Part shown: positions 24,204-59,407 of the stretch, piece after piece
Numbering within the stretch: position 1 is the first letter of the stretch
Layout of the letters: every line of letters begins with the position of its first letter
Source: Ruminococcus sp.
Lineage (GTDB): Bacteria > Bacillota > Clostridia > Oscillospirales > Ruminococcaceae
Direction of reading: 5' to 3'
Length of the DNA: 64,000 nt
Assembly: GCA_017519145.1 (NCBI GenBank)
Contig: JAFWTA010000027.1
Coordinates: 1 to 64,000, forward strand
Made by a program: the position numbers and the translations under genes
Notes under the pieces: generated by a model
What the model saw: the letters and a program-made list of their open reading frames with translations, nothing else
Told to the model about the DNA's origin: nothing
Databases searched by the model: none

Positions 24204-25148
24204 CTACTGTTTTATCTTATGGGCTTTCTCGTAGACCTTTCCGATGACGAATGCCGCTACGTCCGCAAATACCGAGGCTATACGCATTACCAGCACGAAC
24301 AGCACTATCCTGTCCGCATAGCTGTCTCCGCAGACAAAGAGCATAACGCCCTCTCTTATACCGATACCGCCGGGAGCTCCGGGGGTCACGAAGCCTATTA
24401 TCCACGCGAACATGAAGGCTCCCGTCAGCGCCGCAAGCTCCCCTGTGCCTGCCTGCGGAACTATGAACCACAGACACGCAAAGTACATGGCTGCCGACAC
24501 CAGATTATGCACAAAATAGTAGAATATGCCAAAGAGGAGCTGGGGGCGTCTTTCCTTGCTGAATGCCTTTGCGTAACGTGAAAGATAGGAGCTTACCCTG
24601 TCCCTGAACTTCAGCCTTATGACTATCGCGCCGGCTGCAAGTACCGCTATGCCCACGGCTGCCACGATGAGTAGATTTCTGCCGTATTTCGACATGAGCT
24701 CCGCTATCCTTCCGCCCAGCAGCACCACTGAGATGATGCCCGTCCAGAACACGCAGAACAGCACATCAAGAATGGTGGCACAGGCAACGTCCACATGGCT
24801 TATCTTCATATCCGCCGCCAGCTGATTTCGTCCCACATACTGGAACACATTGCCGGGGAGGTACTTGTATATATTTGACCTTGTGAACACGGGCATCGCC
24901 GCCGAATAGGGTATCTTCTGCCCCGAAAGGGAGCGCGTGAACATGAGCCACGACCAGCAGGCTATGACTATCTGGGCAGTCTGTATGACCAGTCCCACCG
25001 CAAATGCAGCTATGACACGGGGCGAGCTGAGATCCGACAGCTTTATGTCCATGTCGATTATCTTCTTCACCACAAATGCCAGTGCGGCTATAACAACGAG
25101 ATGACCTGCCAGCTTCAGGAGCTTTTTGACGTTTATCTTATCCTTCAT
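24204..25148 (-). CDS. LPG-synthase-TM/UPF0104 family membrane protein
   Basis: 314 residues with about eight membrane helices. The sequence LPGNVFQYVGRNQLAADM and the glycine-rich TPGAPGGIGIREG near residue 260 are typical of the lysylphosphatidylglycerol-synthase transmembrane (AglD/MprF-like) family. Members are often found in polysaccharide loci, where flippase or lipid-linked sugar roles have been proposed. It is the last gene of the operon and overlaps the preceding glycosyltransferase gene by 11 bases. Confidence 0.82.
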   Translation of the reverse strand: MKDKINVKKLLKLAGHLVVIAALAFVVKKIIDMDIKLSDLSSPRVIAAFAVGLVIQTAQIVIACWSWLMFTRSLSGQKIPYSAAMPVFTRSNIYKYLPGNVFQYVGRNQLAADMKISHVDVACATILDVLFCVFWTGIISVVLLGGRIAELMSKYGRNLLIVAAVGIAVLAAGAIVIRLKFRDRVSSYLSRYAKAFSKERRPQLLFGIFYYFVHNLVSAAMYFACLWFIVPQAGTGELAALTGAFMFAWIIGFVTPGAPGGIGIREGVMLFVCGDSYADRIVLFVLVMRIASVFADVAAFVIGKVYEKAHKIKQ

Positions 25149-26298
25149 GGCGCTTTGCCTTCTCGTAGAGCTCTTCTATGTTGTCCACCATCTTGTCCCA
25201 CGAACGCCTGTCAGCCTCCGCGCGGACGCACTTGGTCATTTCGTCCGCATTTCCCTCGCTGAAGAACCTCTTTACCGCCTCTGCAAGGGCGTGGGGATCC
25301 TTTGGCGGAACTATATAGCCCGTCTTGCCCTCTTCCACCACCTCGGGGATACCTCCCACATCGGTGACGATAACGGGCTTGTCGAAGCCGTATGCCATCT
25401 GGACGATACCGCTCTGAGTTGCCGATTCATAGGGCAGAACAACTATATCGCAGGAGGCGAAGTACTTCTCTATCTCCTCGTCGGGGATATAGCCGTCAAC
25501 TATCCTGATATTGCTGCCTGCTCCGCCTTTTTTTATCAGCTCCATGTAGGAGTCCTTGTCGTCGCGGAACTCGCCCACTACCCAGAGCTCGATATTGGAG
25601 TCATATTTCACTATCTCGGGCATTGCCTTTATGATGTGGCGGAGTCCCTTATACTCGCGGACAAAACCGAAAAACAGCAGTATCTTCTTCTCGGGAGCGA
25701 TGCCTGCCGCCTTTCTTCCCTCCTCCACGGTCAGGTGGTGGAGATTGTACTGATTGTGTACGGGCAGGTCAGCCGCCTTGAAGATGGGGTCAGACTTTAT
25801 GAGCTTTAAGTCCTCTGCATCGGATTCGGAATGGGTGATATACGCCGAGCCGCGCTTCAGTGCGAACCTTGCCAGAGTCTTCTGCATTGGGAAGTTCTCA
25901 TGGGGGAAGACGTTATGGCAGATGAATATGCGGGGTATCTTTCTCAGCATGAATGAAAGACAGCCGTAGCAGGGTGCAAAATAGGGATGCCACCAGTGTA
26001 TGACTATGAAGTCGGGGCGCATCTTCTTTATTTTTCTCGCCGTATTTATCCAGTTGAAGGGATTTGCGGTATTTATCAGGAACTGCGCATCGTCTATCTT
26101 GAAAAGGCTGTTGCTGTAATCCTTCTGGGGCTTTCTGAAAAGCAGCTTGGGATACTGCATCTTATAGGAGACAGTCTTTACATTGAAGCGCTTTTTAAGG
26201 CTGTTTATCATAGTCGCGGTGTTGTAGGCGATACCGCCCTTATAGGGGTAAACGGGACCTATCATCACGACTTTTTTTCTCTTTTTCTTCTCGCTCAT
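25138..26298 (-). CDS. GT4-family glycosyltransferase
   Basis: 386 residues, GT-B fold. The N-terminal glycine-rich loop (GPVYPYKGGIAYNTA) and C-terminal VVLPYESATQSGIVQMA with the nucleotide-sugar-binding acidic position are GT4 features. Acts at the cytoplasmic face. Donor and linkage cannot be read from sequence. It overlaps the next upstream gene by four bases (ATGA), showing translational coupling in the polysaccharide operon. Confidence 0.85.
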   Translation of the reverse strand: MSEKKKRKKVVMIGPVYPYKGGIAYNTATMINSLKKRFNVKTVSYKMQYPKLLFRKPQKDYSNSLFKIDDAQFLINTANPFNWINTARKIKKMRPDFIVIHWWHPYFAPCYGCLSFMLRKIPRIFICHNVFPHENFPMQKTLARFALKRGSAYITHSESDAEDLKLIKSDPIFKAADLPVHNQYNLHHLTVEEGRKAAGIAPEKKILLFFGFVREYKGLRHIIKAMPEIVKYDSNIELWVVGEFRDDKDSYMELIKKGGAGSNIRIVDGYIPDEEIEKYFASCDIVVLPYESATQSGIVQMAYGFDKPVIVTDVGGIPEVVEEGKTGYIVPPKDPHALAEAVKRFFSEGNADEMTKCVRAEADRRSWDKMVDNIEELYEKAKRHEG

Positions 26299-27281
26299 TT
26301 CTCATCCACCTTTTCCGCGGAGCGTCTTTGCTCCTCGTCGCTCTTTCCGCACTCCATCTTTCTCACTCTGTACTGAACGTCCTCAAGGAGCTTGCGGTTT
26401 GAAGCGATGGTATCGCCGAGAAGTCCGAGAGTCACCGTCTGGAAGCCCATCATCATGAGTATAGCCGTCAGGATAAGGGACTGAACGTGTCCGTCGCCCT
26501 CTCCCATAGCCATAAGTATCAGGAAGCGCACTCCCAGTACTGCACCTATGAGGAGAAGCACAAGTCCTATGGTCATGAAGAATGTAAGGGGCTTGTACAT
26601 TACAAAGGAGCGTGTGATGACAGTTGATGAACGCTTCATATAGCGCCACATACTGGAGAAAAGACGTGAGGGTCTGGTCTCGGGATTTGTTCTGATGGGC
26701 ACCGAGGTCATGGCAGTCTTGTTGTTGCCTGCCTGTATGATGGTCTCGAGAGTATAGGTGTACTCGTTGACAACATTGAGTCTCAGTGCAGCATCACGGG
26801 AATAGGCTCTGAAGCCGCTGGGAGCGTCGGGGATATCCGTTCCCGAAGCCACGCGCACCACCCAGCTTCCAAGATGCTGGAACTTCTTCTTTTTCCACGA
26901 GAAATGCTCGGTCTGGTCGATGGGTCTCTCACCGATGACGATATCAGCCTTCTGCTCAATGATGGGACGGACTATCTTCTCGATGTCCTCGCCGCAGTAC
27001 TGGTTATCGGCGTCGGTATTTACGATTATATCCGCACCAAGGTGGAGACAGGCGTCGATACCTGCCATAAATCCCTTGGCAAGGCCCTTGTTGCGCTTGA
27101 ACGAAACGATATGATGGAAGCCCAGCTCCCTTGCACGGGCAACGGTATTATCGCGGCTTCCGTCGTTGATGATGAGATACTCTATGGTGTCGATGCCGTC
27201 TATATGCTTTGGCAGGTCGTTATATGCCAGTTCAAGGGTCTCCTCCTCGTTATAGCACGGTATCTGTATGATAAGCTTCAT
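26295..27281 (-). CDS. GT2-family glycosyltransferase with membrane anchor
   Basis: 328 residues. The N-terminal GT-A domain has IPCYNEEETL, a DGS (NDGSRDNT) and the DADNQY metal motif. Two C-terminal membrane helices lie at about 235-260 and 270-295. This layout is that of polyprenyl-phosphate mannose/glucose synthases, which would charge a lipid carrier used by the adjacent GT-C-like membrane protein (27302-29767). Confidence 0.87.
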   Translation of the reverse strand: MKLIIQIPCYNEEETLELAYNDLPKHIDGIDTIEYLIINDGSRDNTVARARELGFHHIVSFKRNKGLAKGFMAGIDACLHLGADIIVNTDADNQYCGEDIEKIVRPIIEQKADIVIGERPIDQTEHFSWKKKKFQHLGSWVVRVASGTDIPDAPSGFRAYSRDAALRLNVVNEYTYTLETIIQAGNNKTAMTSVPIRTNPETRPSRLFSSMWRYMKRSSTVITRSFVMYKPLTFFMTIGLVLLLIGAVLGVRFLILMAMGEGDGHVQSLILTAILMMMGFQTVTLGLLGDTIASNRKLLEDVQYRVRKMECGKSDEEQRRSAEKVDEK

Positions 27282-27301
27282 TGTATATCAGTTCCTTTCT
27301 T

Positions 27302-29767
27302 TTATGAGGCTGGCGAAAAACGTACTGAGCTGAAAGCTATTCCCAGCTCACGGTCATCATTGGGATTTGCAAGGGAAGCGCTCCACAGAGGCGAGCGTAT
27401 CTCCAGTACATTCTCTCCGTCAAGCACCTGATCCTCATCGGCGCTGAAGTGGAGAGGCTGACCGTTATTGCTCTGGGTTATCTCCTGTGTGCCGATCTCC
27501 TCACCGTTCAGAAGCAGAGTTACCTCCACACTGTCCCTGCCGATCTGTTCAAGAGGGATGCCGCAGCCCATTTCAAGGGTCACATCATAGTCGCCGGGAT
27601 AAAGTCCGCACTCCACCTGTGCCTCCTCGCTGTCTGTCCAGCAGAATGTCGCCTCAAGTGCGGAAACGCCGCTGAGCTTGCTGTAATCTCCTGCGGCAGT
27701 ATAGACAAATCTGTACTTGTCGTAGGAGTAGAGGTGTATCTCCTCAAGGAAGCTGTAGAAGAACTTGGGCATGGGGATAATAGTTCCCGTATTTACCATG
27801 TCGTCCTCGATGTGGTGTATCTTGTTGGAGTAGATCGCGGTATAGTCCTCCTCATCGAGGATATCCTTGGTGATGACCATTACTCTGCCGTATCTTGCGG
27901 CGAGTTTGTCGAGCTGGTCGGGATCGCTGTCATCCACAGGGATAACATGAGCGCCCGTCATGCTCCTTATGGGGAGCCACAGCCTTGATGCATAATCGTT
28001 GGAGATGAGCACACAGTTGTCCTCCTCAACGAAATCCGCAAGGTCGCTGAGAACGCTCCACTCGATACGGGTGTCGTCCTTGTGCCATACAAGGTATGCG
28101 TCGTACCTTGCAATGAACAGGAATGACGCCGCAGCCGCAGGTATGAGCAGCTTTCCGCCGAAGCGGTCAAGAGCGATACCGCTGAAGATTATGCCCACAG
28201 GTATAAATGGAGCCAGATAGCGCGAGAAGTAGAAGTAATACCTTACCTCAAAGCGCAGGAATGCCGAGTATATCAGAATACAGTAGAAGAACATGATGAA
28301 TACCACAAGGCGCTGATGAGACTCGGCAAAGAACTTTGCGAAGATCAGTGCAGAGACCATAGCCAGCGGCATCACAAGGAAGCCCACGTTTGCACAGAAG
28401 CCCCAGAGCGTCACATGGCTTGCCGACTTCCAGTCGCTGTATGTCATGAATGCCTTTATGATGATGTACGCACAGGGCAGTATTATCAGAAGTCTCAGAA
28501 GGAGAGCGAACAGCTTGGAGGAGGAAGCCTTCCTCAGGAACTTCTTCTGTGAGAAGTCCTTCTTTGTCAGCTTCTTCACTATGAGGTCAAAGATGATGAC
28601 TGCCGCAAATGCCGCAGCTGAGCCGATAACGACTACCTTGGTGATATTGTGTACGCCTACGCCGCCCACAAAGAGGGGGCTGTAATTGTTCATGGTGTAG
28701 AAGGGCTGCACCTGCTTCATCATGAAGAAGCTTGCAAGATATCCGGCAACTGTTACAGGCATGAGCACCGCGTACTGTCTCTCTCTTGTGAACACATACA
28801 TACCGCCGTATACCATGATGAACATTGGGAGCATGGTGTACAGGGATACATGATAGCAGCCGAAAACTGCCACGGGGATTATGGACATCCACCGCTGCTT
28901 GGTGTCCTCATCGGTCATGAAGTAGAGGAATACCGCAGGTATAAGGGTGAGCATTATCTCGGTAAGAGAGGATTTTGCCGTCCATATTATTACGGGAGCC
29001 ACCGCTGTCAGCGCACATACACAGGCGGAGGTGGTCTTTTTGAGCTTGAGTGAACGGGTTATGAAGTATACGACGAATATGAGGCACACAAAAAGTATGG
29101 TCTCAAAGTCCTCCATATGCTCCATACCGAATATGCTTCCCCACATGGCAAGGAGTGCCGAATATGTAGGTATGCCGTGGATTATGCCCGAGGACGGTCC
29201 CACGCTTCTGTCATAGACAGTATCGGGGTATTCCGCATGGGGGATATCGTATCCTGCCAGCCTGCTGCGGATATTGTAAGCGAATGCCGCTTTCTCGGTC
29301 TCATCGGTGACATCGTGATACTCGGTTATATCCTTCTGGCGCTTGGTATCGCCGTTCATAAAGAGTATCGCCTGTGTCTGGTACACGCCCTGATCCTGTC
29401 CCATGCCGAAGAATTCGTTTTTGGTGGTAACAAGGGGAAGTGCAAGGAGACTGACTATCAGCGGTATGAGCATATCCTTCGCGGACATATCGTTCCTGAA
29501 GATGTGCTTCCAGCGGAAGGGCTTGCTCCTCCGCAGGAATATTGCCAGAACCAGTACGGCAAAGCTTGCCGCTGCGGCTCCGCAGCCTGCACGGAACACG
29601 GTGTACTTGTCTATGACGAAAAGCCCCATGCTCACAAGGATATGGATGAAGAACCACATGACTATTCCCATTACGGCGCCTTCTATTATGTTCTTGTTCC
29701 TGAACCATACAACGCCGCTGAGAATACTGAATATAACTCCGACTAAGCATATCGCAGCAAATAACAT
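27302..29767 (-). CDS. Large GT-C-like membrane glycosyltransferase
   Basis: 821 residues. About 13 membrane helices fill residues 1-530, followed by a soluble C-terminal domain with beta-sandwich character (about 650-821). The first long loop carries GMGQDQGVYQTQ, an acidic loop like the catalytic Asp loop of GT39/GT83 enzymes that take sugar from a polyprenyl-phosphate donor. It adjoins the GT2 polyprenyl-sugar synthase, its likely donor source. I infer that it decorates the polymer on the outer face. No closer family name is justified. Confidence 0.75.
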   Translation of the reverse strand: MLFAAICLVGVIFSILSGVVWFRNKNIIEGAVMGIVMWFFIHILVSMGLFVIDKYTVFRAGCGAAAASFAVLVLAIFLRRSKPFRWKHIFRNDMSAKDMLIPLIVSLLALPLVTTKNEFFGMGQDQGVYQTQAILFMNGDTKRQKDITEYHDVTDETEKAAFAYNIRSRLAGYDIPHAEYPDTVYDRSVGPSSGIIHGIPTYSALLAMWGSIFGMEHMEDFETILFVCLIFVVYFITRSLKLKKTTSACVCALTAVAPVIIWTAKSSLTEIMLTLIPAVFLYFMTDEDTKQRWMSIIPVAVFGCYHVSLYTMLPMFIMVYGGMYVFTRERQYAVLMPVTVAGYLASFFMMKQVQPFYTMNNYSPLFVGGVGVHNITKVVVIGSAAAFAAVIIFDLIVKKLTKKDFSQKKFLRKASSSKLFALLLRLLIILPCAYIIIKAFMTYSDWKSASHVTLWGFCANVGFLVMPLAMVSALIFAKFFAESHQRLVVFIMFFYCILIYSAFLRFEVRYYFYFSRYLAPFIPVGIIFSGIALDRFGGKLLIPAAAASFLFIARYDAYLVWHKDDTRIEWSVLSDLADFVEEDNCVLISNDYASRLWLPIRSMTGAHVIPVDDSDPDQLDKLAARYGRVMVITKDILDEEDYTAIYSNKIHHIEDDMVNTGTIIPMPKFFYSFLEEIHLYSYDKYRFVYTAAGDYSKLSGVSALEATFCWTDSEEAQVECGLYPGDYDVTLEMGCGIPLEQIGRDSVEVTLLLNGEEIGTQEITQSNNGQPLHFSADEDQVLDGENVLEIRSPLWSASLANPNDDRELGIAFSSVRFSPAS

Positions 29768-29776
29768 CTAATACGT

Positions 29777-30955
29777 TCACTCCTCACAGATATTGTTTAT
29801 CATCTCACTGAAATTGCGCATTATGACTTCCCAGCGGTAGTTGTTCTCAACATAGGCTTCGGCGTTCCTGCGCATTATAGCGTACTCCCTGTCGTGGGAG
29901 AAAACATAGTCCAGTATGCCCTCGAACTCGAAGTAACCGGTATAGTAGAGACCGCCGTTGCTCTTGACGCAGTGGCCTTTAAGCACCTCGCAGCCGCCGT
30001 TCACGATAACGGGGACGGAAAGGGTCATGGCTTCAAGGACGGAGATGGACAGGCTCTCGAATCTGGACGGCAGCACAAGGCATTTTGCTCCCGATATGCC
30101 GCTGAACTTGTCCTCCTCACTGACAAAGCCGAGACTGATGATGTCCTTATGCTTGGGTATCTCGCAGACGGGCTTGCCCATAAGCACCAGCTTTAAGGGA
30201 CTGTCGGGGCGGCGCTTCTTGTATTCGAGGAAGTACCTGAACATCTCCGGGCAGCACTTGCCCTCGTCGATGCGTCCGACGTATATGATGTAATCGCCGT
30301 CGATGCCGAATTTGCTGCGGAATGCAGCCTCATCGGGCTGACAGGGCACCTCGACTCCCGTGCCCATTACTCTGCACGGGATATCCTCACAGTGGAAAAG
30401 TCCCTGCACCAGAGCCTTCTCCTCATCGGTGAGGAACACATAAGCCCTCGGCAGCTTGAAAAAGGTCTTGTAGGTCTCGAAGTGTATGAAGGGCTCGTCG
30501 TGAGCGGTGGGTATCATTATGGACTTTTCAGCCACCTCGGGGAGTCCCTGCACTGTCAGGTAGTAAAGATAGGTCACGAAGATGAACACATCGTACTTAT
30601 CCTTTGAGGAGCGGATATAGTCGATAGCCGCAGGTGAATAGGGTCCCTGCTTCTCGAACCATATCTTCTCTGTCTCTGTATCGTAGTGCCCCGAGGAGAG
30701 GTATTTCCCGTTGAAGTCGTTGAAGTCCTTTGCACGTGGCTTCTCAACAGGGAAACGGAGCACTCTTACTCCGTTTATCTCCTCCTCGTCGGCAGTATAA
30801 TAGTTTTCCCATGTGGTATATTCAAGAGCCTTTGTGGTAATGACGTTCACTTCAAACTCGCCCGTGAGCCTTTCGGCAATGAGCCTTGTGTAGTACTCCG
30901 AGCCGCCGTTTACCTCAAGGCCGTATCTCTGATTTACAAGCGCTATTCTTTTCAT
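29777..30955 (-). CDS. GT4-family glycosyltransferase
   Basis: 392 residues. N-terminal GLEVNGGSEYYTRLIAERL, C-terminal IIYVGRIDEGKC and the E-x7-E stretch PSRFESLSISVLEAMT indicate a GT-B retaining enzyme of GT4. The sister gene at 30952-32163 has the same layout (NFSEM/KFFAEV tail, 'GGLYYTGYFEFEG' versus 'GGLYFGDYFEFEG'), so the two arose by duplication. The ends of the two genes overlap by four bases. Confidence 0.86.
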   Translation of the reverse strand: MKRIALVNQRYGLEVNGGSEYYTRLIAERLTGEFEVNVITTKALEYTTWENYYTADEEEINGVRVLRFPVEKPRAKDFNDFNGKYLSSGHYDTETEKIWFEKQGPYSPAAIDYIRSSKDKYDVFIFVTYLYYLTVQGLPEVAEKSIMIPTAHDEPFIHFETYKTFFKLPRAYVFLTDEEKALVQGLFHCEDIPCRVMGTGVEVPCQPDEAAFRSKFGIDGDYIIYVGRIDEGKCCPEMFRYFLEYKKRRPDSPLKLVLMGKPVCEIPKHKDIISLGFVSEEDKFSGISGAKCLVLPSRFESLSISVLEAMTLSVPVIVNGGCEVLKGHCVKSNGGLYYTGYFEFEGILDYVFSHDREYAIMRRNAEAYVENNYRWEVIMRNFSEMINNICEE

Positions 30956-32163
30956 TGTTCCCTTTCTCCGATGACTTCTGCGAAAAACTTCTTGTATTTC
31001 TCAACGATCACGTCCCATGCAAAGTTGCTGCGGACGTAGTCTCCGCCGTTTCTTCCCATGAGTGCAGCCTTTTCCCTGTTGCGGAGGATCCAGTCGGTGC
31101 AGCCCTCGAACTCGAAGTAATCACCGAAATAGAGACCGCCGTCGGACTCCGATACGAAGTTCCTCGTGACGGGACAGCCGCTGTGTACCAGCACGGGGCG
31201 TCCGCAGAGCCAGCTCTCCATGATAACAAGGGAGAAGCTCTCGTTCTTTGAGGGCTGACAGAGGAACTCTGCCGCTGCCTGTCCGTTGTACTTGTCCTGT
31301 ATATCCACGAACCCCAGATCGATTATGCGCTTCTGCCTTACCAGCTCGTCGGGGAGCTCAATGCTGCCGCCGCCCATGAGCACCAGCTTCAGGTCGGTAT
31401 CGCGGCGCTTGAGATACTCCGAGAAGTACTGAACGAGGGTGTGGACGTTCTTGCCCTTGTCCTTGCGGCCCGCGTAGACGATAAACGGGCTGTCTATGCC
31501 GAACTTTTTGCGGAAGGCATCTGCGTCGGGCTTTATGTCCGTATCCATGCCTATTCCCATGACTATGGTCTTTGTGCCGCTCTTTGAGAAGCCGTAGAGC
31601 CTCTCCGCCAGCTCCGACTCGGGACGGGCATTGAATATCATTCCCGCAGCCTTGGGGAACACCTCTTTATACCGCGATATATAGGCATAAGCCTCGTCGT
31701 GGAAGCAGGGTATCAGCACCGATTTCTCCGGGAACATCTTCGTTCCGTTATAGGTGGTGCAGAGCAGATAGGGTATGAACACAAAGAGGCTGTACTCCTC
31801 ACTGTGCTCCTTCATATAGCCGTAGAGAGCAGAGCACTCCGCCATTTCCGTAAGGAAGATGTCCTCCTCGGCAGGAGTTATCCTCATGCCCTTCATGAGC
31901 TTCGCATTCACGGCGTCAAAAGCCGCGGCATTTCTCTCGCCCACTCTGAACCTTCTTACGGTAATGCCATTTGAGGCAGTCTCTGTGCCCTCCTTGTGGA
32001 AATTGCGGCTCCAGTCCGAGCCTGCGTCCTTTATACAGGTGGTCAGTATCTCCAGCTCCACCCCTGCCCTGTGCAGGCGGTCAGTCACCTGCCGGAGCTC
32101 CATTTCCGCTCCGCCGGGGATATTCTCGCCGTACCACGGGATAACAAAACCAATCTTCTTCAT
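30952..32163 (-). CDS. GT4-family glycosyltransferase
   Basis: 403 residues, GT-B fold. N-terminal PWYGENIPGGAEMELRQV provides the glycine loop; the C-terminal half has FIVYAGRKDKGKNV and PSKNESFSLVIMESW. It is a paralogue of the neighbour at 29777-30955. Such GT pairs often add alternating linkages in a repeat unit; this is inference. It starts 14 bases after the stop of the next upstream gene. Confidence 0.86.
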   Translation of the reverse strand: MKKIGFVIPWYGENIPGGAEMELRQVTDRLHRAGVELEILTTCIKDAGSDWSRNFHKEGTETASNGITVRRFRVGERNAAAFDAVNAKLMKGMRITPAEEDIFLTEMAECSALYGYMKEHSEEYSLFVFIPYLLCTTYNGTKMFPEKSVLIPCFHDEAYAYISRYKEVFPKAAGMIFNARPESELAERLYGFSKSGTKTIVMGIGMDTDIKPDADAFRKKFGIDSPFIVYAGRKDKGKNVHTLVQYFSEYLKRRDTDLKLVLMGGGSIELPDELVRQKRIIDLGFVDIQDKYNGQAAAEFLCQPSKNESFSLVIMESWLCGRPVLVHSGCPVTRNFVSESDGGLYFGDYFEFEGCTDWILRNREKAALMGRNGGDYVRSNFAWDVIVEKYKKFFAEVIGEREQ

Positions 32164-32177
32164 CGTTCTATCCTTTG

Positions 32178-33260
32178 TTATTTACCTTTTCTTCCCTCAA
32201 TGAAGCCTGTAAGGCAGTCTGTGAAGATGTCCTTCAGGCGGTCGTATGAGAAGTATTCAAGTCTTTTCCTCTGTCCCTCGATGAGACTTTTCCGGAGCTT
32301 TTCGTCCTTTACCACTCTGTCGATGACAGCCGCCGCGAATACGGGGTCATTGCTGTCCAGAAGGACGCCGCTTCCGCCGAGAGTCTCGGAAATAGCGCTG
32401 GTATCATAGGCTATTATGGGGACTCCGAAGAACATGGACTCCACAAGGGGCACACAGAGTCCCTCGTGCTCACTCATACAGACAAAGGCGTCAGCCACAT
32501 GGTAATACGCCAGTATCTCGCTGAACTTTATATGGCCTGTGAACACTACATCGTCGCTGAGTCCCAGTGCGCCTGCATACTTCACAAGGCGCTCGTTGTA
32601 GTTCTCCATGCCGTTTGCCGAGCCCACAAGTATGAGCCTTGAATCGGGCTCCAGCTTCTTATAGCAATAGTAGGCTCTGATGATATTCTCCTGCCTCTTG
32701 TTGGGAGCGATCCTGCCCACGAATATGATATTCTTCTTTCCGTCGCGGTACTTCTTCATGGTGGCTTCATCCGGAGCCTGCTCATAGTCCTCGAACTTAG
32801 TCAGCGAGGGACTGATGTCAATGGGACAGGTATAGCCCATTCTTCTCAGCTCCGACTTGTTGTACTCCGACACCGCCATGACGTAATCCATCTTGTCGCG
32901 GAGGTACTCCACGCCCTTGTAGCCGTATTCCGTCAGCTGAGTGGCTGATGGGCTGTAGGGGCGGAAGAAATCGGGCGGTGTGATATTGTGGTATATCATA
33001 GCCCTGCGGCACTTGTAGCTGTCTATCTTGAAGGACAGGTCCGTACCTGTGGACTTGTGGTATATGAGCACGTCGCTGCTTTTCAGGTCGGTGAGCCTGT
33101 CCGCCTTTATGGCAGAGCCCTCGGGCAGGCGCTTGTCGATATTCTCGGCATAGATAGCGGTCTCATAGCCCAGACCCGCGATTATCTCCTTGAGGGCGAG
33201 AGCGTCGTTTCCCACTCCGTCACCGAAGGACAGTGTAGGAAGGAGCTGCACCACCTTCAT
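32178..33260 (-). CDS. GT4-family glycosyltransferase
   Basis: 360 residues. The N-terminus (LLPTLSFGDGVGNDALAL) and the acceptor part (MIYHNITPPDFF) are followed by a donor domain with IIFVGRIAPNKRQENI and MSEHEGLCVPLVESM (E-x7-E). This form is common in ABC-exported polysaccharide loci next to a short coiled-coil protein, as seen here at 33257-33715. It overlaps that gene by four bases. Confidence 0.87.
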   Translation of the reverse strand: MKVVQLLPTLSFGDGVGNDALALKEIIAGLGYETAIYAENIDKRLPEGSAIKADRLTDLKSSDVLIYHKSTGTDLSFKIDSYKCRRAMIYHNITPPDFFRPYSPSATQLTEYGYKGVEYLRDKMDYVMAVSEYNKSELRRMGYTCPIDISPSLTKFEDYEQAPDEATMKKYRDGKKNIIFVGRIAPNKRQENIIRAYYCYKKLEPDSRLILVGSANGMENYNERLVKYAGALGLSDDVVFTGHIKFSEILAYYHVADAFVCMSEHEGLCVPLVESMFFGVPIIAYDTSAISETLGGSGVLLDSNDPVFAAAVIDRVVKDEKLRKSLIEGQRKRLEYFSYDRLKDIFTDCLTGFIEGRKGK

Positions 33261-33715
33261 CGGTCGGTCTCCTTAGAAATGAGTCTGCGGAGCTCCGCAT
33301 TCTCGCGCTCCAGCTTGTCAAGTCTGATGAGGAGCTCCTTGTTTGCAAGCTCAAGGGTCTCCACTCTGCCGCCGAGGTCTGCGCTTCCGCTCTCCGCAAG
33401 TGACTTCATTACAGTGACCGCATTGGCGTTGAAGTCGTTCTGCTCAAACACAACAGGCTCAACGTAGAACTTGGTCAGCTTTCTGATGACCTTCTTGATG
33501 AATACCTTTACGGGATTACCCTGAAGCTCCTTGTAGGGCTGTATATAGTAATGGGTGCTGACATAATCGAGGGCTTCGCTTGCAGAGCCGCTCTGTGCGT
33601 TCTTCTTGTAGGGAACGTCCTCGAAGCTGAGCATATCCGCAGTAAGTCCCTGCTCCTTGATGCTCTGCTTTATCTCAGCCATTATCTCCTCTATATTTAT
33701 CTTTTCGTTTTCCAT
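33257..33715 (-). CDS. Coiled-coil accessory protein of the polysaccharide operon
   Basis: 152 residues, no signal peptide. An N-terminal segment (INIEEIMAEIKQSIKEQGL) is followed by a middle region (YYIQPYKELQGNPVKVFIKK) with an amphipathic, basic membrane-surface-like part. A C-terminal coiled coil covers about 112-150 (LELANKELLIRLDKLEREN). In other genomes this module can be fused in front of glycosyltransferases. A role as scaffold that gathers the GTs at the membrane is inferred. Confidence 0.7.
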   Translation of the reverse strand: MENEKINIEEIMAEIKQSIKEQGLTADMLSFEDVPYKKNAQSGSASEALDYVSTHYYIQPYKELQGNPVKVFIKKVIRKLTKFYVEPVVFEQNDFNANAVTVMKSLAESGSADLGGRVETLELANKELLIRLDKLERENAELRRLISKETDR

Positions 33716-33718
33716 AGC

Positions 33719-34786
33719 TTATCCTTTCTTGACCGCCACAACAGCGTAATCCTGACTTCCGAATATCATCTCGGACACGCGCTTCATCGCCTCGTTGAAC
33801 TCCTCTGTATTCTCTGCTCCCTCGCATTTAAGAGCAGGGATACTGTAAGGCGGACGGCTGTTCTCGGTATATATTATCTCCACATCCGTAAAACCTGCCT
33901 TCTCAAGGTAATACTGCATGGTGAGAGGGTGTACGGGCTTTATATGGGAGGGGTCTATATAGAATGCATTGGTATATATGGACAGTGAGGTGGGGTTGGG
34001 GGTCTCGATGATGATACAGCCGCCCTCCTCCAGACGCTCATAGGCAGTATTGCACAGGTCGATTATCTGATGGGGAGTAAGGTGCTCCACCACCTGTCCC
34101 ACGAAGATACCGTCCACGCCCTCGGTCTTTCTGAGGAAGTCCGCACCGTCGCCGCAGGCAGCCTTCAGCCCCTTCATATTGCAGTACTCGGTGTATGGCT
34201 CGTATATATCCACGCCCTCGGCGTTTATGCCGTTGTCCTTCATCAGCGACAGGAACTCTCCCCTGCCGCAGCCTATGTCAACAACGTGCTTTTTGCCGCT
34301 GTAAAACCGCAGATAGAACTCCTGTGCCTTCTTTATGCTCTCTATGGAGCCGCGGAAGTGGTTCTCAAAGTCGAAATAGTCGATGTCCTCATAGTCGGAG
34401 CCGCTTCCCGAAGGCGCCGCCGCAGGGGCAGATGTCTCCGCAGGAGCTGCCTGAACTGTACCAACAGGCTGTACAGCAGCGCCCTTCAGCTTCTTTTCCA
34501 CCGTGCCCAGCTTGCTGCGCAGGAACTCCTCCTCGCTGGTGATACGCTCGATAAGGGTATTGTTGTTCCTGAGATTTACGCAGGCGGACTCAAAGTCGCT
34601 CCTGAGTGCGGAAAGGCTTTCCGAAGCAGCTCCCTGTGAGTCGCCGAAGCGCTTTTCCAGCTCAGCCATATCTCTGTCAGCCGCCTGAAGCCCCGCAAAG
34701 AAGCTGCCGAAAAGCTTTCTTTTCAGTGCTCCCTTGATGCCCTTCTGATTGTTTATGCTTTCAAGAAACTGTGATATATTGCTCAT
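33719..34786 (-). CDS. SAM-dependent methyltransferase with N-terminal coiled coil, probable chain cap
   Basis: 355 residues. Residues 1-100 are helical and mostly coiled coil, an Ala/Pro-rich linker spans about 104-130, and a class I methyltransferase follows. SAM motif I is VVDIGCGRGEFL (168-179), with GVDIYEPY as the ribose-binding acidic strand and ETPNPTSL further on. The family resembles O-antigen methyltransferases such as the methyl domain of WbdD, which caps the non-reducing end and, through its coiled coil, sets chain length. The neighbouring ABC ATPase has the matching C-terminal domain. A cap role is inferred from these features and context. Confidence 0.82.
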   Translation of the reverse strand: MSNISQFLESINNQKGIKGALKRKLFGSFFAGLQAADRDMAELEKRFGDSQGAASESLSALRSDFESACVNLRNNNTLIERITSEEEFLRSKLGTVEKKLKGAAVQPVGTVQAAPAETSAPAAAPSGSGSDYEDIDYFDFENHFRGSIESIKKAQEFYLRFYSGKKHVVDIGCGRGEFLSLMKDNGINAEGVDIYEPYTEYCNMKGLKAACGDGADFLRKTEGVDGIFVGQVVEHLTPHQIIDLCNTAYERLEEGGCIIIETPNPTSLSIYTNAFYIDPSHIKPVHPLTMQYYLEKAGFTDVEIIYTENSRPPYSIPALKCEGAENTEEFNEAMKRVSEMIFGSQDYAVVAVKKG

Positions 34787-34789
34787 TTT

Positions 34790-36025
34790 TTACCTCTGCA
34801 AATTCCAAGTGTGGTCAACGCGGGCGATACCCGCATCACCGTATGCCGATAACATCTGTATTTTGTATGCCTGCCTGTAATAGTCCACAGGTATTCCCTC
34901 ACCCTGTTCAATGGCTATATCTATCATATACTCTCCCGACAGCAGCTGTACGTTCTTCATGATCACCTCAGCGGTGCCGTCCTTGGTGAGTGTCAGCTCG
35001 GGGAGCTTGTCTATCCTTGTGTTGGTGCCGTAGCACTGTACGCCGTTCATATCGAAGATACCGAAGCCGATGACTGCGTCCTGAACGGGCTTTTTCACGG
35101 TGTAGTCCACAACGAGCCTTATGTCCTCGCCCACTCTGAATACGGACTGCTCTGTGCCGTCCGAAGCAAAGGAGCGTATCCTCTTTATACGCGCCTCGCC
35201 GCTTCCCCAGCGCTTGCCGTCCTTGTTTTCGGCAGGCTCCTCGGTCCCGTCAGCCTCCTCGGACTTCTTGTTCCTGTCCTGTATCTTCCTGCTCATATAG
35301 TCAAGGTACTCAAGGTCTATCTCCTTGGGCGGCCCCTCCGCCTTGATGAGTCCCTCGTGTATCCATATCGAGCGGTCGCATATCTGCTCTATCTGACCCA
35401 GCGAGTGGGACACGATAACGATGGTGGTGCCCTGAGACTTTATCTCCCTGAGCTTGTTGAAGCACTTTGACTGGAAATTGGCGTCGCCCACGGCGAGTAT
35501 CTCGTCGATGAGGAGTATATCTGCGTCCACGTTTATAGCTACGGAGAAAGCCAGTCTCATATACATTCCCGAGGAGTAGGTGCGGACGGGATTGTCGATG
35601 AAGTCTTTAAGCTCCGAGAAGTCGATTATGCTCTGTATACGGGAGTCTATCTCCTTTTTGTTCAGTCCGAATATAGCGGCGTTGGTGTAGATGTTCTCCC
35701 TGCCGCTCATATCGGGGTGGAAGCCTGCTCCCAGCTCTATAAGGCTGGAGACTCTTCCCTGCATTTTTATGCTTCCCGAATCGGGATACATTATCCTTGT
35801 CAGCAGCTTCAGCGTGGTGCTCTTGCCGCAGCCGTTGTGACCGATGAGACCTATTGCCTCGCCCTTTTTCACCGAGAAGCTTATGCCGCGGAGCACCTTG
35901 CGCTCCTCATAGCGGCTCCTCTTGCGGAAAAGCAGTCTCTCCTTCAGCTGCGAGCCCTTGTCCAGATACACCTTGAAGCTCTTGGTAACGTCTTTGACTT
36001 CTATTACATTTTCATTTTCAGCCAT
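34790..36025 (-). CDS. wzt: Polysaccharide ABC exporter ATPase with Wzt C-terminal domain
   Basis: 411 residues. The ATPase domain has Walker [10 protein letters not shown] (62-70), signature YSSGM (150-154) and Walker B LLIDEILAVGD (171-181). After a charged linker, residues about 260-411 form the beta-sandwich Wzt_C domain (DIRLVVDYTVKKPVQDAVIGF split across strands, ending AGIARVDHTW). In E. coli O8/O9a this domain recognises the methyl-capped chain end. TagH-type wall teichoic acid ATPases lack it, which argues for cap-dependent export. Its start overlaps the permease stop by one base. Confidence 0.9.
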   Translation of the reverse strand: MAENENVIEVKDVTKSFKVYLDKGSQLKERLLFRKRSRYEERKVLRGISFSVKKGEAIGLIGHNGCGKSTTLKLLTRIMYPDSGSIKMQGRVSSLIELGAGFHPDMSGRENIYTNAAIFGLNKKEIDSRIQSIIDFSELKDFIDNPVRTYSSGMYMRLAFSVAINVDADILLIDEILAVGDANFQSKCFNKLREIKSQGTTIVIVSHSLGQIEQICDRSIWIHEGLIKAEGPPKEIDLEYLDYMSRKIQDRNKKSEEADGTEEPAENKDGKRWGSGEARIKRIRSFASDGTEQSVFRVGEDIRLVVDYTVKKPVQDAVIGFGIFDMNGVQCYGTNTRIDKLPELTLTKDGTAEVIMKNVQLLSGEYMIDIAIEQGEGIPVDYYRQAYKIQMLSAYGDAGIARVDHTWNLQR

Positions 36026-36801
36026 TACAGTTCCTCCGCAAAGTGCTTCTGGAGCTTATTGAATACAACAGCTCCGATCAAAAGGAATAAAACTCCCAGA
36101 CCTGCCGCCCAGAGAAGTGTGGTAAGGTCGGGGATCTGCCTGTCGTAAAGCACCGTTCTGTAGCAGTCGATTATATGTGTCATGGGGTTGAGATTAAATA
36201 TGGGAAGATATCTCGGCGGTACTATCGACTTTGAGTAGACAACGGGGGTGAGGTACATCCACGCCATGGAAACGATGCCGAGGATATGCTCCAGATCCCT
36301 GAAATAGACGGTTATCGCTGAGGTCAGCAGAGCCATTCCCAGTGCAAAAACGTACTCCACTATCATTATGACGGGGAGGGTCAGCACAGCAAGGAAGTTT
36401 ATGCCTGCTCCCGTTACTATTATGACCGCGAATATGACTATGAAGCACAGCAGCATATTCACAAAGCAGCTTGTGACATAGGATATGGGTATGACCATTC
36501 GCGGGAAGTATATCTTCTTTACGAGGTCCTTCTGCCCCACTATTGATGCAGCTCCCACCGTTATGGACGATGAGAAGAATATCCACGGTATCAGCGCCAC
36601 GAAAAGGTAGAGGTAATACCTCGGGATATTGTTCGGAAGGATCTTTGAGAAAACTATCGTGTATACTATCAGCTGGAAAAGCGGATTGATAAACGTCCAC
36701 AGAAAGCCCAGCACCGAGCCCTTATAGCGTCCGCGGAGGTCCTTTTTCACAAGGCTGAATATCATCTGTCTGTAAGCATACAGCTCTTTTATCGTACTCA
36801 T
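36025..36801 (-). CDS. wzm: Polysaccharide ABC exporter permease (Wzm/TagG type)
   Basis: 258 residues with six membrane helices of the ABC-2 type. The N-terminal interface helix (YRQMIFSLVKKDLRGRYKGS) and VLGFLWTFINPLFQL are strongly conserved in Wzm and TagG. With the ATPase it forms the channel that carries a lipid-linked polymer across the membrane. It is the first gene of the operon; AAGGAG lies upstream and a strong promoter is at 36873-36901. Confidence 0.92.
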   Translation of the reverse strand: MSTIKELYAYRQMIFSLVKKDLRGRYKGSVLGFLWTFINPLFQLIVYTIVFSKILPNNIPRYYLYLFVALIPWIFFSSSITVGAASIVGQKDLVKKIYFPRMVIPISYVTSCFVNMLLCFIVIFAVIIVTGAGINFLAVLTLPVIMIVEYVFALGMALLTSAITVYFRDLEHILGIVSMAWMYLTPVVYSKSIVPPRYLPIFNLNPMTHIIDCYRTVLYDRQIPDLTTLLWAAGLGVLFLLIGAVVFNKLQKHFAEEL

Positions 36802-36872: not shown

Positions 36873-36901
36873 ATTATATCACAAGCGCTCTGCACTGTCA
36901 A
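36873..36901 (-). promoter_or_regulatory. SigA promoter for the wzm-wzt operon
   Basis: Minus strand TTGACA (36896-36901), 17-base spacer, TATAAT (36873-36878). Both boxes are perfect. It lies 72 bases before the wzm start. Confidence 0.88.
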
Positions 36902-54253: not shown

Positions 54254-54282
54254 ATTATACACCATATTCGGTGTGATGTCAA
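54254..54282 (-). promoter_or_regulatory. SigA promoter of the citrate synthase operon
   Basis: Minus strand TTGACA (54277-54282), 17-base spacer, TATAAT (54254-54259). Both boxes are perfect. The spacer holds a CACACCGAATATGGTGT partial dyad that could be an operator. Confidence 0.9.
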
Positions 54283-55433: not shown

Positions 55434-55462
55434 TTGACACGGCTCCGACGATTTGTTATAAT
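55434..55462 (+). promoter_or_regulatory. SigA promoter of the second polysaccharide cluster
   Basis: TTGACA (55434-55439), 17-base spacer, TATAAT (55457-55462). A leader of about 80 bases follows before the ATG at 55553. Confidence 0.9.
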
Positions 55463-55552: not shown

Positions 55553-56941
55553 ATGAACAGAAATAAAGACCTGTATAAAAGATTTGTCACCTTTATCTCC
55601 AGCATACTGCTTCTGGGAATGCTCACAGGCATATTCGCCTTTGTGTGGTACAGGAACTACAGTGAGGAGATAATCCTGCCATACTACCGTCGAGGAAACT
55701 GGGTGCTCATCGCTATCTACTGCCTGCTGGTATGGCTGTTTTTCAGAGCCTACGGCGGCTTCAAGCTGGGCTATCTGAAGAAAACGGATATGCTCTATTC
55801 ACAGATGATATCCATGATCTGTGTCAACACGGTATCATACTTCCTCATCAGCCTCATAGGCAGACATTTCATGTCAGTTTCGCCTGTTATCGTCATGTCC
55901 TGTGTCGATATGGGAGTCATTGCTCTGTGGACCCTGCTTGCGGGCAGGCTGTACTTCATGATATATCCGCCGCGAAAGCTGGTCATCATCTACGGAAGCC
56001 ATCAGGCAGCAGCGCTGGTGCTGAAAATGAGCCAGCGCGTGGACAAGTACATGATATGCGAATCCATAAGCATAACCGAGCCTGCGGAAAAGGTCCGCGA
56101 ACTCATAATGAAATACGAGGGTGCTATCATCTGCGATATCCCTGCCGAGCAGAGGAACGACTACTTGAAATTCTGCTTCGAGCATTCAAAACGCGCGTAT
56201 ATAGCCCCTAAAATATCAGATATTATAATAAGAGGAGCCGACGATATACGTCTTTTCGACACTCCCCTTATGCTGTGCCGCAACTACGGTCTCGACTTTG
56301 AACAACAGCTCATCAAGCGCACCTTCGATGTTATATTCTCACTGATAGCACTGATACCTGCCGCTCCGTTCATGATACTGGCGGCTGTAGCGGTAAAGCT
56401 CTACGACCGCGGTCCGGTTTTCTACAAGCAGAAGCGCCTGACCCTCAACGGCAGGGAGTTCTACGTCTACAAGTTCCGCAGCATGATAGTTGACGCTGAA
56501 AAGGACGGCAAGGCTCGTCTTGCCACCGAGGAGGACGAGCGTATAACCCCCGTGGGAAAGATACTGAGAAAGTTCAGGGTGGACGAGTTTCCGCAGCTCC
56601 TCAACATACTCAAGGGCGATATGTCCGTGGTGGGACCGCGCCCCGAGCGTCCCGAGCTCACCGAGGAGTACAAGAAGGAAATGCCCGAATTCGGCTTCAG
56701 ACTCAAGGTCAAGGCAGGTCTTACGGGCTACGCTCAGGTAACGGGCGCCTATGACACCACTCCCTATGACAAGCTTAAAATGGACCTGATGTATATAGAG
56801 AACTACTCCATACGTCTGGACCTTCAGATAATACTCATGACAATAAAGACCATGTTCTTCCCGCCAAAGAACAACGCCGAAATAGACGAGAACGTTCTGG
56901 CGCCGAAGTTCACAGAAGAAAAAAAGGAGAACAGCAGATGA
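55553..56941 (+). CDS. Initiating sugar-phosphate transferase (WbaP/PssY-like)
   Basis: 462 residues. Four N-terminal membrane helices (about 12-130), a CoA-binding-like Rossmann domain (about 140-260), then the bacterial sugar transferase domain (about 275-450). Its motifs are RTFDVIFSL, DRGPVFYKQKR, YKFRSM, DEFPQLLNILKGDMSVVGPRPE, and GLTGYAQVTG. It transfers a sugar-1-phosphate to undecaprenyl phosphate, the first step of polymer synthesis. The 3' end overlaps manC by four bases. Confidence 0.93.
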   Translation: MNRNKDLYKRFVTFISSILLLGMLTGIFAFVWYRNYSEEIILPYYRRGNWVLIAIYCLLVWLFFRAYGGFKLGYLKKTDMLYSQMISMICVNTVSYFLISLIGRHFMSVSPVIVMSCVDMGVIALWTLLAGRLYFMIYPPRKLVIIYGSHQAAALVLKMSQRVDKYMICESISITEPAEKVRELIMKYEGAIICDIPAEQRNDYLKFCFEHSKRAYIAPKISDIIIRGADDIRLFDTPLMLCRNYGLDFEQQLIKRTFDVIFSLIALIPAAPFMILAAVAVKLYDRGPVFYKQKRLTLNGREFYVYKFRSMIVDAEKDGKARLATEEDERITPVGKILRKFRVDEFPQLLNILKGDMSVVGPRPERPELTEEYKKEMPEFGFRLKVKAGLTGYAQVTGAYDTTPYDKLKMDLMYIENYSIRLDLQIILMTIKTMFFPPKNNAEIDENVLAPKFTEEKKENSR

Positions 56942-58002
56942 AGATCACAGCAGTTATCATGGCTGGCGGCAGAGGAGAGCGTTTCTGGCCCAAGAGCCGC
57001 AACGCCACGCCAAAGCAGTTCCTTTCGCTGACAAAGGACGGCGAGACCATGATACAGAAAACGGTGAAAAGGCTCCGTCCCATTGTTGAGGCTGAGGACA
57101 TATTCATCGTCACCAATGCAGCATACACCGAGCTGGTGCTTGACCAGCTCCCCGATATACCAAAGGAGAATATCCTTGCCGAACCCTGCGCAAGGAACAC
57201 CGCTCCCTGCATAGCCTTTGCGGCAGCGGTCATCGGCAGGAAATACGAGGACGCCATCATGCTGGTGCTCCCCTCCGACCACCTCATCGGCTATGAGGAC
57301 ATCTACCTCAATACGCTGAAAAAGGCTATAAAGTCCGCTGAGAAGGGCAAGCGTCTCGTCACTATCGGCATCACTCCCGAGTACCCCGAAACAGGCTACG
57401 GCTACATCAATTTCGGCGAGGAAAAGGGCGACGTCTACGCCGTTGAGCGCTTCGTTGAGAAGCCCGACCTCCCCACCGCCAAGGAGTACCTTGCCTCGGG
57501 CAGATACCTCTGGAACAGCGGTATGTTCGTGTGGAAGATATCCTCCATCATGTTCAATCTCAAGGAGCTCATGCCCGACATCTATGAGGGCGCGATACGC
57601 ATAGGACAGGCTTACGGCACCGACAGCTTCAACGAGGTGCTGGTGAAGGAATTCACCGCTTTCAGAAGCGAGTCTGTGGACTTCGGAATCATGGAAAAGG
57701 CAAGGCACATCTACACTATCCCCGGAAGCTTCGGCTGGGACGACGTAGGAAGCTGGCTGGCTGTTGAACGCATAAACGAGACCGACGACGACAAGAACTA
57801 CATCGACGGCGACGTTATCGCCATCGACTCAAAGCGCACCACCGTATGCGGCGGAAAGCGCCTCATTGCCGCTGTGGGCACAAGAGACATCATCATCGTT
57901 GATACCGATGATGTTCTGCTGGTATGCTCAAAGAACAACACTCAGGACGTGAAAAAGGTCATTGCTCAGCTTAAAGAGCAGGGCAGGGACGAACTGGTCT
58001 GA
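56938..58002 (+). CDS. manC: Mannose-1-phosphate guanylyltransferase
   Basis: 354 residues. Nucleotidyltransferase signature AGGRGERFWP (9-18) with TPKQFL, followed by the FVEKPDLPTA sugar loop and WNSGMFVWK. There is no C-terminal isomerase domain. It makes GDP-mannose for Gmd downstream. Phosphomannomutase is not encoded here. Confidence 0.95.
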   Translation: MKITAVIMAGGRGERFWPKSRNATPKQFLSLTKDGETMIQKTVKRLRPIVEAEDIFIVTNAAYTELVLDQLPDIPKENILAEPCARNTAPCIAFAAAVIGRKYEDAIMLVLPSDHLIGYEDIYLNTLKKAIKSAEKGKRLVTIGITPEYPETGYGYINFGEEKGDVYAVERFVEKPDLPTAKEYLASGRYLWNSGMFVWKISSIMFNLKELMPDIYEGAIRIGQAYGTDSFNEVLVKEFTAFRSESVDFGIMEKARHIYTIPGSFGWDDVGSWLAVERINETDDDKNYIDGDVIAIDSKRTTVCGGKRLIAAVGTRDIIIVDTDDVLLVCSKNNTQDVKKVIAQLKEQGRDELV

Positions 58003-58069: not shown

Positions 58070-59107
<1,038 letters not shown>

Positions 59108-59137: not shown

Positions 59138-59407
59138 ATGAGATCTGAGGTACTCAGAAGCGAAAAAGGCGGATATAACAAAACCGATGTGCTTACTAAG
59201 ATCGATGCTCTGAACGCTCTGCTGATGATGGCGGAGGAGGGCGTGGACAGCTCAAAGATACTCCCCGAGCTGGAAAAGGTCCGTCAGCGTCCCATGAGGA
59301 AAGAAAAGGGCGGCTTCTTCGGTACTATTGGCTTCTCCGCCGAGGATACCGATAAATATACAGCCGCCCTTGAAGCAAAACTGATGAACGCTCTCTCGGA
59401 CAGATAA
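59138..59407 (+). CDS. Small hypothetical protein with DivIVA-like motifs
   Basis: 89 residues, AAGGGGG upstream. Two short segments (GGYNKTDVLTKIDALN at 12-27 and GFSAEDTDKYTAALEAKL near 66-83) resemble the glycine-Phe/Tyr-x3-D-V-D pattern at the head of DivIVA/GpsB-type domains. This is weak similarity. It is encoded between gmd and the first glycosyltransferase, so a scaffold role is possible but unproven. Confidence 0.6.
   Translation: MRSEVLRSEKGGYNKTDVLTKIDALNALLMMAEEGVDSSKILPELEKVRQRPMRKEKGGFFGTIGFSAEDTDKYTAALEAKLMNALSDR

Follow-up and report, generated by a model that had tools for sequence, protein, structure and literature searches.

A two-operon locus in a rumen Ruminococcus that may direct the synthesis and export of a capped D-rhamnose wall glycan

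A 64,000-nucleotide stretch of DNA from a rumen Ruminococcus (positions 1 to 64,000 of contig JAFWTA010000027.1 in assembly GCA_017519145.1; “the window” below) carries two operons that may together build a methyl-capped surface polysaccharide and export it through an ATP-binding cassette (ABC) transporter. Several described systems resemble it in part. The A-band D-rhamnan of Pseudomonas is encoded by GDP-D-rhamnose genes with an ABC exporter. The rhamnose wall polysaccharides of streptococci (GAC and SCC) are Gram-positive, ABC-exported, and given a side sugar after export by a GT2 and a GT-C glycosyltransferase; they consist of L-rhamnose, their ATPase is of the RgpC/RgpD type without a Wzt_C domain, and they have no terminator methyltransferase. 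The O-antigens of Escherichia coli O8/O9a and Klebsiella pneumoniae O3/O5/O12 combine a WbdD or WbbB terminator with a Wzt that bears a carbohydrate-binding module (CBM).

PMC2943079 describes, in Gram-positive Geobacillus stearothermophilus, an S-layer system with a methyl-capped (2-O-methyl) rhamnan, Wzm/Wzt, and a WbaP-type initiator, and it cites a 2005 paper by Cuthbertson whose title assigns specificity in E. coli O8 and O9a to the C-terminal domain of Wzt. In PMC11231755, a coiled-coil terminator together with a CBM on Wzt is described as a marker of terminator-capped systems. A first-pass annotation of the window had proposed an ABC-exported, capped rhamnan in a bacterium without an outer membrane, and the Geobacillus rhamnan provides a precedent for this.

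We propose, with a probability of roughly 65%, a pathway that would run through both operons. Operon 2 would supply GDP-D-rhamnose and start a lipid-linked chain by means of PHPT, an initiating sugar-phosphate transferase, followed by the glycosyltransferases GT4e and GT4f. GT4a to GT4d of operon 1 would extend this chain in the cytoplasm. A methyltransferase, kept on the membrane by a small protein (orf152), would cap the chain end as a WbdD-type terminator in two pieces; Wzm and Wzt would export the chain, with the Wzt_C domain binding the cap. Outside the cell, the GT-C protein orf821 would attach a side sugar, taking it from a lipid-phosphate donor that GT2 makes. The proposal builds on the gene content, the predicted Wzt_C fold, the co-occurrence and shared clusters of the operon genes, and the joint change of Wzt_C and methyltransferase; from these we infer the identity of the sugar, the cap, the role of orf152, the addition of the side sugar, and attachment to the wall. 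D-rhamnose might be limited to a primer rather than make up the polymer.

Cap reader, cap enzyme and chain start

The window is contig 33 of a 3.17-Mb genome in 65 contigs. Operon 1 lies on its minus strand, and the gene calls and coordinates of the first-pass annotation for both operons were checked and are correct. The one perfect promoter claimed for this operon is an exact, sigma-70-type TTGACA-N17-TATAAT at 36873-36901 (minus strand), located by motif scan; the window has three such sites, as against none in 100 shuffles. Another precedes operon 2 (55434-55462, plus strand), and the third, at 54254-54282 (minus strand), lies upstream of a citrate synthase gene.

The first two genes, wzm (36025-36801; ABC-2 permease, Pfam ABC2_membrane, 4e-20) and wzt (34790-36025), are adjacent and have base 36025 in common. 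Wzt consists of an ATPase (ABC_tran, about residues 1-245) and a Wzt_C carbohydrate-binding domain (residues 271-401; Pfam, 1e-28, 100.6 bits with a cut-off of 30.4). This is the single Wzt_C match in the genome; the domain is not rare in the phylum, where 37 of 398 genomes have it over the cut-off. The predicted fold of the C-domain agrees with the earlier assignment of Wzt to the cap-recognizing type, the closest solved Wzt_C being that of Aquifex aeolicus in the presence of 3-O-methyl-D-mannose.

The adjoining gene (33719-34786) encodes an S-adenosylmethionine-dependent methyltransferase, the proposed chain terminator (Pfam Methyltransf_23, hereafter MT23; 5e-13). Its catalytic part, at about residues 128-355, matches PDB 3dli (6.5e-48), and its first 130 residues have a heptad score equalled by none of 200 shuffles, as expected from the coiled coil noted at first pass. 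A Pfam scan found no kinase family in the protein. It has relatives in R. flavefaciens ND2009 (locus L020, 92%) and SAb67 (locus L022, 97%).

Next comes orf152 (33257-33715), a helix/coil protein of 152 amino acids without a family in Pfam or NCBIfam scans, which we propose as the second half of the terminator. A hidden Markov model (HMM) built from 29 orf152 proteins matched the N-terminal part of 15 of the 17 FkbM-family methyltransferases encoded beside exporters of the genus (about 1e-5 to 1e-8) and of all three glycosyltransferase-methyltransferase fusions. It also matched, over nearly the whole length, the 476-amino-acid methyltransferase of genome G089 (locus L005; 4e-14), as well as part of a 516-amino-acid methyltransferase in locus L084, and none of 28 MT23 proteins. 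The two unmatched FkbM proteins (G134 and G175) are followed by a separate orf152-like gene, as in the window. These matches indicate that the window has as two genes what some relatives have as one protein, and since orf152 resembles the N-terminal module of fused methyltransferases, the pair looks like a split WbdD-type terminator, in which the coiled coil may serve as a ruler. Two points weigh against this: the orf152 matches fall in helix/coil regions, where homology is easily overstated, and the heptad score of orf152 itself was reached by 53 of 200 shuffles and is not significant.

Operon 2 lies on the plus strand, 18.75 kb from operon 1, and family matches bear out the initiating transferase, ManC, Gmd, and Rmd-like reductase previously placed about 19 kb away. 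PHPT (55553-56941) matches Pfam Bac_transf (1e-65) and exceeds the cut-off of TIGR03025. It is followed by a ManC-type mannose-1-phosphate guanylyltransferase without the isomerase part (56938-58002; TIGR01479, 357 bits with a cut-off of 373), by the GDP-mannose 4,6-dehydratase Gmd (58070-59107; TIGR01472, 491 bits with a cut-off of 415), and, further on, by an Rmd-like GDP-4-keto-6-deoxymannose reductase (61732-62667), whose best PDB match is 2pk3 (2.7e-73, residues 1-308) and next best 6x3b (3e-45). Judged by sequence, this set fits GDP-D-rhamnose synthesis, and another 6-deoxyhexose product is possible. The two operons contain no dTDP-L-rhamnose rml set and have gmd and rmd instead; the remaining genome was not searched for rml. 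GT4e (59451-60602) and GT4f (60595-61719) precede rmd. No WbpX, WbpY, or WbpZ name occurs among the family-library matches, and neither enzyme was compared with reference sequences.

Pairing of the two operons

We surveyed 80 Ruminococcus genomes, 42 of which were good (at least 90% complete and at most 5% contaminated). Rmd was found in 77 genomes (in G154 as pieces only), PHPT likewise in 77, and each in all 42 good ones; the window-type Wzt was found in 54 of the 80 and in 30 of the 42. A search with Wzm gave the window type in 54 genomes (54-100% identity) and solely another type in 24 (27-33%). G120 has both types, and G140 and G184 (64% and 73% complete) have neither and also lack Rmd and PHPT. 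All 42 good genomes therefore hold operon 2 and one or other type of Wzm, although this by itself is weak evidence because short exporters may well be common in Gram-positives.

At least one of Rmd and PHPT is present in each of the 54 genomes with the window-type exporter (Rmd is missing from G153 and PHPT from G163), whereas in 24 of the 80 operon 2 occurs with a short-Wzt exporter instead. Operon 1 therefore seems to depend on operon 2 and not the reverse. The association in Ruminococcus suggested at first pass thus stands in part: the exporter does pair with the GDP-D-rhamnose set, and operon 2 is independent of it in those 24 genomes. The stronger claim, that each operon depends on the other, fails on the independent occurrence that the annotation itself had named as telling against it.

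The distance between the operons varies. In 13 of the 54 genomes, the window included, wzt and rmd share a contig at a distance of about 26-28 kb; in the others they are farther apart (about 1 Mb in G148) or on separate contigs. For the other exporter type, the distance to rmd is 12-24 kb in G155, G181, G182, and G185 and 136 kb in G126, and in many genomes the two are on separate contigs.

Evidence from outside the genus for the pairing of the operons is stronger than the co-occurrence within it. Across 119 genomes of the family, Wzt_C over the cut-off occurs in 12, Rmd in 12, and both in 7 (Fisher, 9e-6; 2.6e-5 with the genus itself removed; both uncorrected for kinship), and the two lie 1.0, 1.6, 1.6, and 3.1 kb apart in G085, G089, G108, and G036, 14 kb apart in G111, and on separate contigs in G028. 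A search with the methyltransferase gave 66 loci, 24 of them not titled Ruminococcus (some, such as L019, close to Ruminococcus). Twenty of these 24 have wzt. In nine, from six genomes, GT4e, GT4f, and wzt stand in one stretch, the glycosyltransferases clustering with wzm, wzt, and the methyltransferase gene. Five (L070, L077, L081, L082, and L084), from four genomes, combine gmd, rmd, and wzt within one stretch, and these five also hold wzm and the methyltransferase in the same cluster; L077 and L081 are arranged as GT4f, GT4e, wzm, gmd, rmd, wzt, methyltransferase. That several of these loci share a genome lowers their weight. None of the 42 Ruminococcus-titled loci has operon 2 genes near the methyltransferase within the stretch examined, as expected from the distance between the operons in the genus.

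Wzt C-domain and methyltransferase across the genus

Exporter loci were read in the 78 genus genomes that have one, together with the second locus of G120. The next recognized gene after the 54 long wzt genes encodes an MT23 methyltransferase in 29 genomes, an FkbM methyltransferase in 17, and a glycosyltransferase-methyltransferase fusion in 3; four loci have no methyltransferase, and one (G176) is in an unrelated neighborhood. In G157 the MT23 gene is on another contig, the stretch ending before it, and the MT23 protein set holds 28 of the 29. Outside the MT23 class, all five long Wzt proteins scanned (from two FkbM loci, a fusion locus, a methyltransferase-less locus, and G176) have Wzt_C over the cut-off, and Pfam found no Wzt_C in two short ATPases scanned (245 amino acids). 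The 25 short-Wzt loci (297 kb) gave no match to the MT23 or fusion HMMs and one weak FkbM match in L169 (135 amino acids, 1.1e-4). Seventy-six open reading frames neighboring the short-Wzt exporters (L182 left out; the L108 neighbors off-center, other ABC genes having been chosen) matched 62 Pfam families, and the 25 families listed include no other methyltransferase. Seven of the 76 encode Glyphos_transf proteins, a type found with teichoic-acid-like polymers. In 15 of the 25 loci there are GT4 proteins of about 804-848 amino acids. Genomes whose short-Wzt loci (for example L102, L104, L107, L171, and L183) encode one or the other of these protein types near wzm keep operon 2.

The type of the Wzt C-domain follows the methyltransferase family of the adjoining gene. 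In identity counts and trees made from 51 Wzt (G157, G177, and G183 were left out, with fewer than 380 amino acids in the stretch read; the wzm of G177 is on another contig and was not read), mean C-domain identity was 64.5% within MT23 (351 pairs, minimum 54%) and 64.3% within FkbM (136 pairs, with G134 and G175 bringing the minimum down to 26%). Between MT23 and FkbM it was 30.8% (459 pairs, maximum 37%), with ATPase identities of 68-82%. Two such pairs are G174 and G187 (Wzm 90%, ATPase 81.6%, C-domain 29%) and G131 and G133 (91%, 80%, and 31%). Clustering of the C-domains gave four groups: 27 MT23 with the 4 methyltransferase-less loci; 15 FkbM; the 2 FkbM of G134 and G175; and 2 fusions with G176. 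The FkbM enzymes of G134 and G175 are themselves diverged (54% and 45% to the reference; that of G153, in the main group, is also at 54%). With three classes, the fewest class changes required were six on the Wzm tree, three on the ATPase tree, and two on the C-domain tree.

Related species seem to have exchanged the enzyme that makes the cap jointly with the part of the exporter that reads it. Tentatively, and at somewhat less than even odds, reader domain and methyltransferase may form one exchangeable cassette: the genus would keep its GDP-D-rhamnose start module while species change the cassette (MT23, two FkbM types, or the fusion) or have a short exporter without methyltransferase, in a cap-switching serotype system.

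A number of observations count against joint exchange. If G134 and G175 are counted as an FkbM class of their own, the Wzm, ATPase, and C-domain trees need six, three, and three changes, so that the ATPase and C-domain trees fit equally and the class labels set only Wzm apart. The within-class control at 74-82% ATPase identity is thin (17 pairs, 14 of them involving G153); with G153 removed, 3 within-class pairs (C-domain about 62%) face 30 between-class pairs (31%) at 80-82% ATPase identity, and 18 within-class pairs at 70-74% have C-domains at about 30%, these being G134 or G175 against other FkbM loci. The second approximately unbiased (AU) test, on 15 FkbM rows (p 0.01), was chosen after the tree had been seen, G153 and G175 have long branches, and long branches are what meet deep in the C-domain tree. 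A large protein with two GT4 parts also differs in 15 of the 17 FkbM loci, so the C-domain could follow the last sugar rather than the methyl group; G134 and G175, however, have no such protein in the stretch read, yet their C-domain is of another type. Finally, four related genomes (G124, G125, G141, and G158; loci L126, L127, L137, and L145) have no methyltransferase between wzt and orf152 and no MT23 match anywhere in the genome, yet retain Wzt_C (in G141, the genome scanned, with a Pfam match at 1e-24); their C-domains are 49-50% and their ATPases 86-89% identical to those of the window. Cap enzyme and reader are therefore not inseparable, and the methyltransferase was rejected as a strict partner of Wzt_C.

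A C-domain swap had also been suspected in four genomes from Wzt matches ending at residue 265-270, and it was rejected. The Wzt proteins of G147 and G151 match over their whole length, those of G147, G151, and G186 group with MT23 in the C-domain clustering, and that of G157 is cut by the contig end.

Remaining genes, alternative readings and known systems

Downstream of orf152, operon 1 encodes GT4a (32178-33260; Pfam Glycos_transf_1, 5e-31), GT4b (30952-32163; Glycos_transf_1, 8e-14), and GT4c (29777-30955; Pfam, 1e-10), which is akin to GT4b (the GT4b of relatives matches it at about 34%). These are followed by orf821 (27302-29767; 821 amino acids), which has no sequence match in Pfam, NCBIfam, or PDB; in fold comparisons made against PDB it is predicted to be a GT-C membrane glycosyltransferase with a CBM35-like domain at its C-terminus (about residues 685-821), and it may act as an outside-facing decorating enzyme. 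GT2 (26295-27281) is of the polyprenyl-phosphate sugar synthase type, like AglJ, PgfS, and ArnC (Pfam 3e-23; NCBIfam TIGR04182 1e-28, below cut-off). The last genes are GT4d (25138-26298; Pfam 6e-28) and an LPG_synthase_TM membrane protein (24204-25148; Pfam 2e-9, 37.6 bits with a cut-off of 33.4), which we guess to be a lipid-sugar flippase. With orf821 counted, the glycosyltransferases number six (four GT4, GT2, and the GT-C), and Pfam and the predicted fold agree with the earlier picture of one operon with Wzm, Wzt and its C-terminal domain, a methyltransferase, and six glycosyltransferases. In L026, L029, and L038 a different protein of about 715 amino acids takes the place of orf821 beside a well conserved GT2, and the one such protein scanned (L110) had no Pfam match; the decorating enzyme may have been exchanged too. 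Operon 2 also includes a small open reading frame without a family (59138-59407; 89 amino acids), to which a 49% relative in L103 corresponds in position. It ends with a coil-rich protein (62706-63041; 111 amino acids; weak sub-cut-off Pfam match), and in both L103 and L120 a relative of this protein occupies the same position.

It could be argued that the operons make two unrelated glycans, a D-rhamnose glycan from operon 2 by a Wzx/Wzy-type route encoded elsewhere and a capped polymer of other sugars from operon 1. PHPT enzymes commonly serve Wzy routes, and PHPT could serve another pathway here given the three Wzy_C matches (E <= 0.001) in the genome carrying the window; the family is also matched in 9 of 14 control genomes. 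The distance between the operons is not fixed, and none of the 24 genomes restricted to the other exporter type lacks Rmd or PHPT. PMC2943079 calls a WbaP homologue typical of an ABC-independent route. Against this stand the shared clusters outside the genus, with spacings of 1-3 kb in four other genera of the family, and the 54 genomes in which the long-Wzt operon is never without both Rmd and PHPT. These clusters weakened independence of the operons as the leading reading, and we retain it as an unlikely alternative. Separately, the Wzy_C matches, among them those at G000:C28:80247-80735 and G000:C62:35906-36448, hint that the bacterium makes further surface polysaccharides. For the proposed attachment to the wall, there are three LCP-family matches in the genome.

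Two other alternatives were considered. The methyltransferase could act on sugars along the chain, with Wzt_C reading the last sugar, in which case the exporter would not be a methyl-cap reader. The methyltransferase-less loci that retain Wzt_C and the glycosyltransferase sets, which differ between 15 of the 17 FkbM loci and the MT23 loci, speak for this. On the other hand, PMC11231755 describes a terminator design in which a coiled-coil protein carries the cap enzyme and Wzt bears a CBM, and G134 and G175 keep relatives of orf152, GT4a, and GT4b although their methyltransferase and C-domain are unlike those of MT23 loci; we regard along-chain methylation as quite unlikely. The product could instead be a protein glycan, with the GT-C protein transferring it to an S-layer or cellulosome protein. 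This is improbable, as orf821 gives almost equal scores with ALG12 and ArnT (16.4 and 16.0), enzymes whose donors are single sugars on a lipid phosphate, a DPM-like GT2 adjoins it, and orf821 occurs in just 18 of 80 genomes, several relatives having another large protein there.

Cap recognition by Wzt has so far been worked out in Gram-negative O-antigens and Aquifex. Several exchanges within one Gram-positive genus would provide matched exporter pairs, with a 90% identical permease and a different reader and cap enzyme, as material for experiments on the ligand of the reader and on the control of chain length. Locus type would also predict the surface-glycan types of fiber-degrading gut bacteria, whose surface sugars are little known, and, if the proposal is true, cap-switching serotypes of a Gram-positive gut wall glycan would be readable from sequence.

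GDP-D-rhamnose genes and an ABC exporter occur both in Pseudomonas A-band synthesis and here, where they form two operons. Unlike the streptococcal RgpC/RgpD type, the window Wzt has Wzt_C; the short type occurs instead in 24 of the 80 genus genomes. As in the O8/O9a/O12 type, Wzm and Wzt are encoded together and Wzt bears a C-terminal carbohydrate-binding domain, whereas, compared with the capped O-antigens of E. coli and Klebsiella, no lipid A acceptor is expected, the terminator appears split, and PHPT is in the paired operon (a WecA-type start elsewhere was not searched for). The closest full-length solved Wzt is that of Aquifex aeolicus WzmWzt (1.5e-78, residues 8-377), its Wzt_C being 20% identical to the window C-domain. 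The Geobacillus slg cluster (Wzm/Wzt, WsaE, and WsaP) is alike in being Gram-positive, ABC-exporting, and equipped with a WbaP-type initiator, and its Wzt is predicted to bind the capped chain, according to PMC2943079. It differs in having rmlABCD for dTDP-L-rhamnose, where here GDP-D-rhamnose genes form a separate operon, and one trifunctional methyltransferase with two glycosyltransferase parts, where here methyltransferase and coil module are two genes; nor is an S-layer protein known as the target here, although no search for one was made. A methyl-capped, ABC-exported rhamnan is already known in the Gram-positive Geobacillus. New here, with no paper on them or on this Ruminococcus locus found in a search of openly readable literature, are the D-rhamnose two-operon form, the putative split terminator, and the way in which Wzt_C changes in step with the methyltransferase family.

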